In this document: piece by piece, positions 4,122 to 42,892 of the stretch
Layout: every line of letters begins with the position of its first letter
Position numbering within the stretch: the first letter of the stretch is position 1
From: an uncultured Alphaproteobacteria bacterium
GTDB taxonomy: Bacteria > Pseudomonadota > Alphaproteobacteria > HIMB59 > GCA-002718135
Reading direction: 5' to 3'
Length of the DNA: 49,305 nucleotides
NCBI GenBank assembly: GCA_902560725.1
Contig: CACEMR010000012.1
Span: 1-49,305, forward strand
Made by a program: the position numbers and the translations under genes
Notes under the pieces: model-generated
What the model was told of the DNA's origin: nothing
The model's input: only the letters and a program-made list of their open reading frames with translations
Database searches by the model: none

Positions 4122-6278
4122 ATGATTAAGAAAAACAATCTTACTATTAATGAAAAATTATATAATTTTGTTAACAAAGTAGTAATACCTGAAACAAATT
4201 TAAATATAGATAAATTCTGGAATGATTTTTCAAATATTGTCGATGAAGTAGATCCATTAAACAAAAGTCTAATAAAGAAAAGATCAGACTTGCAATCAAA
4301 ATTAAATGACTGGTATAAAAATAACAAAGGAAAAGAGATTAATATTGCAGAATATAAAAAATTTCTTTTAGACATTGATTATTTGATTGAAGAAGGGGAT
4401 GATTTTAAAATTGATACAAAAAATGTTGACCCTGAAATAGCTAGTATATGTGGTCCTCAGTTAGTAGTGCCAATAACAAACGCCAGGTATTCGTTGAATG
4501 CAATTAATGCAAGATGGGGAAGTTTTTACGATGCAATATATGGAACAAATGTTTTGGGAGATTTGTCAACAACAAAAGAGTATGACATAAAAAGAGGAGA
4601 GAGAGTTATAAAATTTGCCAAAGAACATTTAGATAAAATTGTACCCTTAAATTTATCTTCATGGAATAATGTAAAAAGTATTAATTTTATTAATAACAAA
4701 ATTAATTTTGATCTTTCTACTAATGAAACAACAACACTTTTAGACGAAAATCAAATTGCAGGTATTCGCTCAAATTCTGAAAATCAATTAAGTGAATTAA
4801 TATTAATTGTAAATAATTTGCATTGTCGCATTCTTATAAATAGAAATAATGCTATTGGAAAAGCTGACATAGCTGGAATTTCTGACATTGTTTTAGAATC
4901 AGCTATTTCTTCCATTTTAGATTGTGAGGATAGTGTAGCTACAGTAGATGCAAATGACAAAGTTTTAGCTTATGAAAATTTGTTAGGTTTAATGAAAGGT
5001 AATTTAGAGTCAACATTTACTAAAAATAACAAAAAAATAACAAGAGTTTTAAATCAAGATATAAAAATTAAAACTCTAAATGGAGAGGATAAGACACTTA
5101 AGGGAAGATCATTAATGCTAGTTAGAAATGTAGGTCATTTAATGACAACACCAATAATATTAAACAAAGATAATAATCAAATTGGCGAAGGTATTATGGA
5201 TGGGGTAATCACTGCTTTAATTGCTATTCATGATTTAAAAAAAACATCTAATAAAAATTCAATTTATAATTCTATTTATATCGTCAAACCAAAAATGCAT
5301 GGACCCGAAGAAGTTGAATTTACAGTAAATCTTTTTGAGCGCATAGAGGCAATGTTAAATCTTCCCAATAATACAATTAAAGTCGGTATTATGGATGAAG
5401 AAAGAAGAACAAGTATTAATCTAAAAGAATGTATAAGGGCAGCAAAATCTAGGTTAGCTTTTATAAATACAGGATTTCTTGATAGAACAGGGGATGAAAT
5501 ACATACTTCAACTCAAGCAGGTTCATTTATAACAAAGGCAGATATGAAAAATACTGCTTGGATAAAATCATATGAAGATCGAAATGTAGATATTGGATTA
5601 GAGTGTGGATTAAAAGGAAAAGCACAAATTGGTAAAGGAATGTGGGCTATGCCTGATTTAATGATGGAAATGGTAGAGCAAAAAATTTCACATCCAAAAG
5701 CTGGAGCAAATTGCTCATGGGTGCCTAGTCCAACTGCTGCTACTCTACACGCAATGCATTATCATTATGTAAATGTTTTTGATATTCAAGATGAAATTAA
5801 AGCTAATGGCAAAAGAGGTACATTAAATGATTTACTAACATTACCTTTATTAAATAAAAGAAATTTATCTGAAGAAGAAATAAATAATGAAATAGAAAAT
5901 AATGCTCAAGGAATTTTAGGTTATGTAGTGAGATGGGTTGATCAAGGAATTGGGTGTTCTAAAGTTCCCGATATTAACAACATTGGATTAATGGAAGATA
6001 GAGCTACATGCCGTATCTCATCACAAGCAATTGCTAATTGGATTGAAAATGGACTTATTACAAAAGAGCAAGCATTGAAAGCATTGAAAAAAATGGCTTT
6101 AGTAGTTGATAAACAAAATATTGGTGATGAAAATTACATACCAATGGCACCGAGTTACGATACTATAGCATTTCAGGCGGCTAAAGATCTTGTTTTTGAG
6201 GGTGTTAATCAACCATCTGGATATACAGAACCTATATTACATAAAAGAAGATTAGAATTTAAATTAAAATATAAATAG
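4122..6278 (+). CDS. glcB: Malate synthase G
   Basis: Condenses glyoxylate with acetyl-CoA to malate, feeding two-carbon units from glycolate or glyoxylate into the TCA cycle. At 718 residues it is the long monomeric G isoform. Visible motifs are the catalytic RNVGHLMT (glyoxylate-binding Arg), the metal-site GIMDEERRT, GFLDRTGDEIHT, the NCSWVPSPTAATLHA stretch, and MEDRATCRISSQ, which holds the catalytic Asp. Only 40 bases lie between the preceding terminator and the ATG, and they contain no glycine riboswitch. Glyoxylate-pathway partners such as isocitrate lyase are not in the window. Confidence 0.96.
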   Translation: MIKKNNLTINEKLYNFVNKVVIPETNLNIDKFWNDFSNIVDEVDPLNKSLIKKRSDLQSKLNDWYKNNKGKEINIAEYKKFLLDIDYLIEEGDDFKIDTKNVDPEIASICGPQLVVPITNARYSLNAINARWGSFYDAIYGTNVLGDLSTTKEYDIKRGERVIKFAKEHLDKIVPLNLSSWNNVKSINFINNKINFDLSTNETTTLLDENQIAGIRSNSENQLSELILIVNNLHCRILINRNNAIGKADIAGISDIVLESAISSILDCEDSVATVDANDKVLAYENLLGLMKGNLESTFTKNNKKITRVLNQDIKIKTLNGEDKTLKGRSLMLVRNVGHLMTTPIILNKDNNQIGEGIMDGVITALIAIHDLKKTSNKNSIYNSIYIVKPKMHGPEEVEFTVNLFERIEAMLNLPNNTIKVGIMDEERRTSINLKECIRAAKSRLAFINTGFLDRTGDEIHTSTQAGSFITKADMKNTAWIKSYEDRNVDIGLECGLKGKAQIGKGMWAMPDLMMEMVEQKISHPKAGANCSWVPSPTAATLHAMHYHYVNVFDIQDEIKANGKRGTLNDLLTLPLLNKRNLSEEEINNEIENNAQGILGYVVRWVDQGIGCSKVPDINNIGLMEDRATCRISSQAIANWIENGLITKEQALKALKKMALVVDKQNIGDENYIPMAPSYDTIAFQAAKDLVFEGVNQPSGYTEPILHKRRLEFKLKYK

Positions 6279-40876: not shown

Positions 40877-42307
40877 TTATACGTCGTAATATAGTTTAAA
40901 CTCATGAGGGTGAGGTCTAATATTAATTGGGTCAACCTCACTATCTTTTTTGTAGCTTATGTAAGTATCAATAACATCTTTTGTGAATACATCACCTTCT
41001 AATAAAAATGCATGATCTTTTTCAAGAGCTTCAAGAGATTCAGCTAAAGATCCCGGAGTGGATTGAATTTTTGACAAAACTTCATCACTTGCAGCGTACA
41101 AATTAATATCTGTAGGATCGCCAGGATTAATTTTATTTTTAATTCCATCCAATCCAGCCATTAACATGGCAGAAAATGCAAGATATGGATTTGCACTTGG
41201 GTCAGGACATCTGAATTCCATTCTCTTCGATTTAGGACTTTGTGAATAAGCAGGTATTCTTACAGAAGCTGTTCTATTTCTTTGAGAGTAAACAATATTT
41301 ACAGGAGCTTCAAATCCTGGAACTAATCTTTTATAAGAATTTGTAGTGGGAGCACAAAATGCTAATAAAGCTGGTGCATGTTTAAGGATACCACCTATGT
41401 AGTTAAGTGCTAAATCACTTAGATTAGCATAGTTGCCTTCCTTATACATTAGAGTGTCACCATCCTTCCAAACACTTTGATGGACGTGCATTCCAGAACC
41501 ATTATCTTCAAAAAGTGGTTTAGGCATAAATGTTGCAGTCATACCATGCTGTTTTGCAACATTTTTTACTACATATTTATATTTCATCATATTATCAGCC
41601 ATTTTTAATAATGGTGAGAATTCTAAATCAATTTCACATTGACCACCTGTAGCAACTTCATGATGATGAGCTTCAACACTTAAACCTATGTCTTGCATAG
41701 TCATAACCATTTCAGTTCTTACATCTTGTAGAGTATCTACGGGTGGAAGAGGAAAATAACCTTCCTTGTGTCTTGGTTTGTGCCCTAAATTTGGATTTTC
41801 ATCAGACCCACTATTCCAAGTTCCTTCAGTAGAGTCAACTTCATGGAATGCAAAGTTTGATCCAGAATCAAATTGAACATTATTAAATACAAAAAATTCT
41901 GCTTCAGGACCAAAGAAAGCTGTGTCGCCAATTCCAGATGATTTTAGATAAGCTTCTGCCTTCTTAGCTATATTTCTTGGATCTCTGGTATAATCTACAA
42001 GGGTAACAGGATCTTTGATGTTGCAGTGTAATGCTAGAGTTTTTTCAGAAAAAAAAGGATCAATGTATGCAGTAGCAGGATCGGGTAGCACGATCATGTC
42101 ACTATCTTGTATTTCTTGGAATCCTCTAACAGATGATCCATCAAAACCAATGCCTTCTGAAAATATATCTTCTTCTAAAAATTTAATTGGTATTGTAAAA
42201 TGTTGTGTTGTTCCTGGTATGTCAGTGAACCTCATATCTACCATTTTAATGTCCATATCTTTAATTTCAGACATTAAGTCTTTTGGTGTAGAGCTCTTTA
42301 ATTTCAT
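40877..42307 (-). CDS. glnA: Glutamine synthetase type I
   Basis: Makes glutamine from glutamate, ammonia and ATP. The 476-residue protein is a normal GSI-beta-size enzyme: [21 protein letters not shown] (metal Glu), the [17 protein letters not shown] segment, [22 protein letters not shown] and RIPAYS. Y404 in the NLY motif matches the adenylylation tyrosine, so GlnE control is possible. AGGAG precedes the ATG. Transcription passes through two tandem glutamine riboswitches 80-200 bases upstream, an added glutamine feedback. Confidence 0.97.
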
Positions 42308-42388
42308 ATCTATCTCCTATTCAACAAAGGGGCATCCTACCAAGTTACCCGGTTAAATCATGCTCTAGTTATGAAATCTATTGGATCT

Positions 42389-42442
42389 GCGTTCCTTCAG
42401 CCTTAGCCTACTTCCGATCTAATAATAATTAGATTGAACGAT
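42389..42442 (-). promoter_or_regulatory. Glutamine riboswitch (glnA RNA motif), glnA-proximal copy
   Basis: Reading the minus strand: P1 5' arm CGTTC, a P2 hairpin ATCTAAT/ATTAGAT with a TATT loop, the conserved core CGGAAGTAGG, a short P3 (GGC, loop TAAG, GCT) and GAAGGAACGC with the P1 3' arm GAACG. Core and three-way junction match the glnA RNA motif, which binds L-glutamine. It ends about 80 bases before the glnA ATG. Confidence 0.9.
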
Positions 42443-42457
42443 TTATAACTTTTGCAT

Positions 42458-42509
42458 GCGTTCCTTCAGTACTATGTACCTACTTCCGACTCACAATGAG
42501 TTGAACGAT
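42458..42509 (-). promoter_or_regulatory. Glutamine riboswitch (glnA RNA motif), distal copy
   Basis: The second aptamer has the same order: CGTTC, P2 ACTCA/TGAGT with a 3-base loop, core CGGAAGTAGG, P3 GGTAC/GTACT around ATA, then GAAGGAACGC. P2 and P3 differ in sequence from the other copy yet keep pairing, which is good evidence for selection on structure. Only 15 bases separate the two copies. Confidence 0.9.
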
Positions 42510-42550: not shown

Positions 42551-42892
42551 TTAGACAGCCTCACTGTCTTTTTCTCCAGTTCTTATTCTAATAACTTGCT
42601 CAATATTAGAAACAAAGATTTTTCCATCTCCAATTTTCCCTGAATATGAAGATTTTTTAATTGCTTCTATTACATTTTCAACTTGATTATCCTCTACAAT
42701 GACCTCTAGCTTCATTTTTGCTAAAAATTCATCATCATAGCTATCATTTGTATCGATACCGCCAGTCGAACCTCTCTGTCTCCCAAAACCTTTAACGTCA
42801 ATAACAGTCATTCCTGAAATTCCTAATTCATGAAGTGAGTCTTTAACATTCGATAATTTAAATGGTTTTATAATCGCCTCTATTTTTTTCAT
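42551..42892 (-). CDS. glnB: Nitrogen regulatory protein P-II (divergent T-loop)
   Basis: A 113-residue trimeric signalling protein that reports 2-oxoglutarate and ATP/ADP and adjusts glutamine synthetase control. KKIEAIIKPFKL, VIDVKGFGRQRG and GDGKIFVSNIEQVIRIRTGE match P-II. The T-loop (about 37-57) reads STGGIDTNDSYDDEFLAK in place of HTELYRGAEYxVDFLPK: one residue longer, acidic, and lacking the ELYRGAE sequence, though Y52 aligns with the uridylylated tyrosine. It overlaps the aminotransferase by 4 bases and lies upstream of the glnA riboswitches. glnB versus glnK cannot be decided. Confidence 0.85.
   Translation of the reverse strand: MKKIEAIIKPFKLSNVKDSLHELGISGMTVIDVKGFGRQRGSTGGIDTNDSYDDEFLAKMKLEVIVEDNQVENVIEAIKKSSYSGKIGDGKIFVSNIEQVIRIRTGEKDSEAV

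Follow-up and report, generated by a model that had tools for sequence, protein, structure and literature searches.

Tandem glycine riboswitches consist of two like aptamers that serve a single expression platform, and the linker between the two domains forms a helix. Glutamine synthetase output is set by nitrogen status in the PII-GlnD-GlnE cascade, which acts by modification of the GlnA protein. For the glutamine-I aptamer (RF01739), tandem copies and an association with glnA, P-II and ammonium transporter (amt) genes have been on record since 2010 (PMC2864571); a survey of 2022 lists 157 doublets and classes them with the multiple-platform arrangements (PMC9481103). A review restricts glutamine riboswitches to cyanobacteria and leaves the copies at glnA, P-II and amt to unnamed environmental strains; among the cyanobacterial members, the Synechocystis gifB riboswitch also controls glutamine synthetase output, by turning on an inhibitor of the enzyme (PMC6316151).

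The window analysed here is the whole of a 49,305-nucleotide stretch of DNA, in which an initial annotation had placed two copies of the glnA RNA motif on the minus strand between glnB (P-II) and glnA (Table 1). The Infernal check that it proposed bore this out: cmscan of the window against Rfam returned two RF01739 matches, of 62.3 and 58.7 bits (gathering threshold, 35 bits), at E-values that exclude a chance origin. The conserved core CGUUCA / CGGAAGUA / GAAGGAACG is present in the cmscan alignments with P1, P2 and P3; as had been described, both aptamers carry CGGAAGTAGG, GAAGGAACGC and the closing P1 (CGTTC/GAACG), and their P2 and P3 are unlike in sequence yet paired. On every feature checked (score, core and nitrogen-gene context) the aptamers fall in the glutamine-I class, and they are predicted to bind glutamine. 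Their spacing had been given as 15 bases; the cores are in fact 18 nt apart (42458-42441) and the Rfam boundaries 12 nt apart. RF01739 is the only credible RNA family in the leader, where matches to RF01704 and SNORD116 were weak and ascribed to chance. The folding energy of the whole leader was no better than that of shuffled sequences (z 0.01). At the end of glnB, directly before the glnA leader, a terminator-like hairpin overlaps the gene end on both strands and could separate the glnB transcript from that leader.

Table 1. Features of the glnB-glnA region, in coordinates of the window.
Feature	Position	Strand	Basis
glnB (P-II, 113 aa), upstream gene; T-loop GRQRGSTGGIDTNDSYDDEF vs canonical GRQKGHTELYRGAEYVVDF	42551..42892	-	PF00543, E 2.3e-33; T-loop comparison
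Terminator-like hairpin at glnB end, AGACAGTGAGGCTGTCT then AATTTTTCTT	42553..42569	-	Pattern scan; consensus match only
Aptamer 1 (glutamine-I), conserved core CGTTC to GAACG	42459..42507	-	RF01739 match 42455-42509, 58.7 bits, E 1.7e-10
Linker, 18 nt, CATGCAAAAGTTATAAAT; putative P0 5' strand, abuts P1 of both aptamers	42441..42458	-	Length and near-invariance over tandem arrays
Aptamer 2 (glutamine-I), conserved core	42390..42440	-	RF01739 match 42386-42442, 62.3 bits, E 1.7e-11
Element ATTTCATAACTAGAGCATG; putative P0 3' strand, 5' half also anti-start element	42359..42377	-	Complementarity to linker and start region
Clade-specific hairpin between P0 and start site, GGGUA...UGCCC	42330..42350	-	Sequence; other genera have a hairpin there, of different sequence
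Shine-Dalgarno AGGAG	42314..42318	-	Sequence
Start region UAUGAAAU, ATG 42307-42305; complement of AUUUCAUA (42377-42370)	42301..42308	-	Sequence; duplex test
glnA, type I glutamine synthetase, 476 aa, regulated gene; motif decayed to NLYAAS	40877..42307	-	TIGR00653, E 4e-200; motif comparison

The linker between the aptamers was compared over 119 distinct tandem arrays. It measured 18 nt in 90 arrays (75 at glnA and 15 at amt) and 17 nt in 29, all of the latter before CP_ATPgrasp genes. Aptamer 1 ranged from 46 to 57 nt and aptamer 2 from 44 to 60 nt in the same arrays, loop lengths varied too, and P2 and P3 differed in sequence around a constant core. Linker and element hardly changed from genus to genus, although the glnA genes of these genera agree at only 51-55% of third codon positions. 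The two segments would form a helix, termed P0, through the pairs CATGC/GCATG, AGTTAT/ATAACT and AAAT/ATTT. The linker:element duplex of the window has an energy of -14.7 kcal/mol (p 0.001 against shuffles); energies overall lay between -12.8 and -15.6 kcal/mol, each type being stronger than 99.3-99.9% of shuffles (p 0.001-0.007). A bulged C has become paired in one clade. Compensatory base changes are few in P0, because its sequence is almost invariant. Such near-absolute identity with few compensatory changes is odd for a plain helix and would suit segments conserved because, for example, a protein or small RNA binds them, an explanation that is nonetheless unlikely: whatever the type, the segments are complementary from end to end, and where the internal loop is shorter it is so on either strand, going from AAA/AGA in glnA to AA/AA in amt.

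The linker is wholly taken up by P0, with no terminator, Shine-Dalgarno or start inside it, and it is conserved with the downstream element as a single unit. Both observations speak against two independent, pseudo-cooperative riboswitches placed one after the other with separate platforms; the survey filing of glutamine-I tandems under multiple platforms (PMC9481103) would agree with that arrangement, which we regard as quite improbable here. As far as can be read from the sequence, no separate platform follows aptamer 1, and two aptamers appear to serve one platform.

The same element is complementary to the start region of glnA and, through UUUCCAUA, to the Shine-Dalgarno UAUGGAG of amt. In a duplex test that included 28 distinct glnA element/start pairs, the energies of a leader's own element and start site averaged -12.6 kcal/mol (glnA) and -11.7 kcal/mol (amt), compared with -10.4 and -9.0 kcal/mol for elements swapped between the gene classes and -8.8 and -7.8 kcal/mol for shuffled start sites. 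An element thus matched its own start site better than did the element from the other class, by 2.2-2.7 kcal/mol, and the extra C in the amt element fits AUGGAG rather than AUGAAAU. For a single leader the excess is only moderate, about 7-8% of shuffled start sites reaching the element:start match, as expected because the sequence is AT-rich. P0 and the start-site pairing need the same nucleotides. In a partition-function folding model, start sites were more open with P0 than without it, by 3.2-3.3 log10 units in glnA (about 1000-fold) and by 0.8 log10 units in amt (about 6-fold). Since P0 frees the start site in the model and excludes the start pairing, we infer a translational switch; control on translation, as first suggested, is probable, rather than control on transcription.

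Transcription termination before the start site was weighed against this. The absence of a terminator hairpin upstream of the ATG had been noted at the outset, and that statement holds in part: a hairpin exists (GGGUA...UGCCC, 42350-42330), though one lacking a proper U-tract, and neither it nor any other terminator on the minus strand between the aptamers and the ATG was called in the terminator scan. A hairpin occupies this position in all genera, is terminator-like in some relatives and is followed by a U-run in two stretches (L093, L099), whereas the U-run is missing from the window and from most other clades. Because the hairpin resembles a terminator only in some relatives, it is not a conserved one, and we consider termination there to have little probability.

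The reading that we prefer, and hold to be probable, is a composite glutamine-I riboswitch with two aptamers and one translational platform, standing in for the GlnD/GlnE cascade. The linker would pair with the element after aptamer 2 to form P0, presumably stacked between both P1 helices, and the element could alternatively bind the start codon in glnA leaders and the Shine-Dalgarno in amt leaders. With P0 formed the start site would be open; with the alternative pairing it would be hidden. Glutamine binding would shift the balance between P0 and the start pairing, thereby setting the output of GlnA and Amt, and the device would take the place of the cascade lost in the family to which the window belongs. 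The sharper dose response attributed earlier to tandem aptamers is plausible.

As to the sign of control, glutamine-OFF (less GlnA and Amt when glutamine is plentiful, a negative feedback) is weakly favoured, because physiology argues for repression by glutamine. In the model at 20 °C, folding of aptamer 2 shifted the odds of P0 by -0.8 log10 units in glnA and by +2.7 in amt leaders, so that the thermodynamic evidence on the sign is divided. The same device could work as a glutamine-ON switch if bound aptamers stabilised P1, and P1, stacked on P0, freed the start and raised GlnA and Amt. P0 runs on directly into both P1 helices, its formation is favoured by folding of either aptamer in amt leaders and of aptamer 1 in glnA leaders, and the cyanobacterial members so far tested are ON switches (PMC6316151). 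The cyanobacterial ON switch, however, drives a glutamine synthetase inhibitor, which makes for negative feedback overall. It would be unusual for glutamine to promote its own synthesis and the uptake of ammonium, and folding of aptamer 2 disfavours P0 in glnA leaders. The ON sign is accordingly a possible but rather doubtful alternative to the favoured OFF sign.

Five RF01739 copies were found in the genome of the window, all before nitrogen genes: a tandem at glnA, a tandem at one amt (L006, leader near 5513-5640) and a single copy at a second amt (L007). In a relative (G078), four tandems precede glnA, two amt genes and an operon for CP_ATPgrasp, Alpha-E and transglutaminase. A type III glutamate-ammonia ligase and a protein with a glutamate-synthase-like domain are encoded by separate ORFs adjoining the second amt (L007 4668-5996, 6967-8331). 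In single-aptamer amt leaders (L004 1501-1555, L145), a putative anti-Shine-Dalgarno, ACUUCC, is complementary both to CGGAAGU of the aptamer core and to the Shine-Dalgarno CGGAAGGAG, an arrangement that would be a glutamine-OFF switch; P0 pairing in leaders of this kind (p 0.006 to 0.23) is suggestive only. Glutamine-I aptamers also precede the operon for a circularly permuted ATP-grasp, an Alpha-E and a transglutaminase-like protein (L131 3936-7374, L135 4899-8164), in tandem in the window's family and singly in another family, f10; members of the window's family also have a short upstream ORF, located after this leader and ahead of the gene. Little is known of this operon, for which the position of the aptamers suggests a role linked to glutamine.

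The nearest relatives of the GlnA protein (95-98% identity) come from single-cell genomes labelled uncultured Alphaproteobacteria, including Pelagibacteraceae bacterium AG-337-I02, a member of the AEGEAN-169 marine group, order HIMB59 (PMC8692485); AEGEAN-169 is synonymous with SAR11 subclade V/HIMB59 (PMC10308909). These relatives would place the host in the HIMB59/AEGEAN-169 order of marine Alphaproteobacteria, in line with the alphaproteobacterial host first proposed. RF01739 was found in 106 of the 110 genomes of the window's family and in none of the 52 of the sister family (the rest of the order). In a class-wide drawn sample of 385 genomes it occurred only in the window's family and in f10, where it is a single copy before the CP_ATPgrasp operon; of the 32 f10 genomes, 23 carry it. 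G004 and G045 (53% and 82% complete) yielded neither RF01739 nor any close type I glnA; G104 had no RF01739, its glnA being only partly found, and in G109, a family member 93% complete, no riboswitch, GlnD, GlnE or close type I GlnA was found. Glutamine-I aptamers were also present in at least 120 viral stretches (viral_contigs, L205-L284), a few of them in tandem; among the matches listed, none had the composite linker, the viral tandem linkers being about 5-8 nt long.

GlnE, the adenylyltransferase (PF03710), and GlnD, the PII uridylyltransferase (PF08335), were searched in all 162 genomes of the order, and the controls behaved as expected. In the window's family GlnE was found in 0/110 genomes and GlnD likewise in 0/110, which contradicts the layered control by adenylylation that the initial annotation had envisaged. 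In the sister family GlnE was found in 41 of 52 genomes (40 over the cut-off) and GlnD in 46, a few only through weak matches to GlnE. For NtrC, nothing beyond NtrC-like matches below the cut-off was found. The canonical PII T-loop and an NLYDLPP-type GlnA motif are kept in the sister family and in other Alphaproteobacteria. The T-loop reads ...HTELYRGAEYVVDF... in the sister family and is altered to ...GGIDPNDGYDDEF... in the window's family, two members having Phe for Tyr. The adenylylation tyrosine of GlnA, noted earlier as intact, is indeed retained (NLY), but within NLYAAS rather than the NLYDLPPEE of the sister family. By these comparisons the T-loop and the GlnA adenylylation motif have decayed in the window's family. 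In a sister genome (L189), the gap between glnB and glnA is short and has no aptamer. The riboswitch goes together with loss of the PII-GlnD-GlnE cascade. GlnD is kept in 22 of the 32 f10 genomes, which indicates that a riboswitch on glnA and amt, rather than any riboswitch, accompanies this loss. GlnD loss has a precedent in streamlined marine lineages, since the Pelagibacterales genomes covered by one survey (PMC10030771) are without GlnD too; the new part is its pairing with the riboswitch.

The tandem at glnA resembles glutamine-I aptamers in core, P1-P3, score, tandem occurrence and the glnA, P-II and amt context of marine metagenomes (PMC2864571, PMC6316151, PMC9481103), and differs from them in its HIMB59/AEGEAN-169-order host family without GlnD and GlnE, its constant 18-nt P0 linker and its shared platform. 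Unlike the gifB riboswitch, it precedes the synthetase gene itself. Paired aptamers, a single platform and a linker helix are features of tandem glycine riboswitches too, but those have another ligand and fold, and here the linker would pair 3' of aptamer 2 with a partner that also pairs with the start site. From the protein cascade it differs in that both modifying enzymes are absent from the family. In the literature covered, a scope outside which the key primary papers on glutamine aptamers fall, no earlier account of a P0 linker with a shared start-site platform was found.

The tandem is a sound member of the glutamine-I class; its architecture would be a new variant, in a lineage where it would stand in for the lost protein cascade. 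To the fuller proposition we give slightly less than even credence: that a family of abundant open-ocean bacteria may have exchanged PII-GlnD-GlnE for a cooperative tandem riboswitch whose new architecture would tie both aptamers, through a fixed helix of the linker, to one switch at the start codon or the Shine-Dalgarno, in the leaders of glnA, amt and CP_ATPgrasp genes alike. The glutamine-riboswitch copies at glnA, P-II and amt gain a host lineage and a testable platform, and with the linker helix there is a defined case in which to ask why tandem aptamers exist. The contrast between sister families, one with the cascade and no riboswitch and the other with the riboswitch and neither GlnD nor GlnE, makes the control of nitrogen assimilation in streamlined ocean bacteria without the textbook cascade directly testable.
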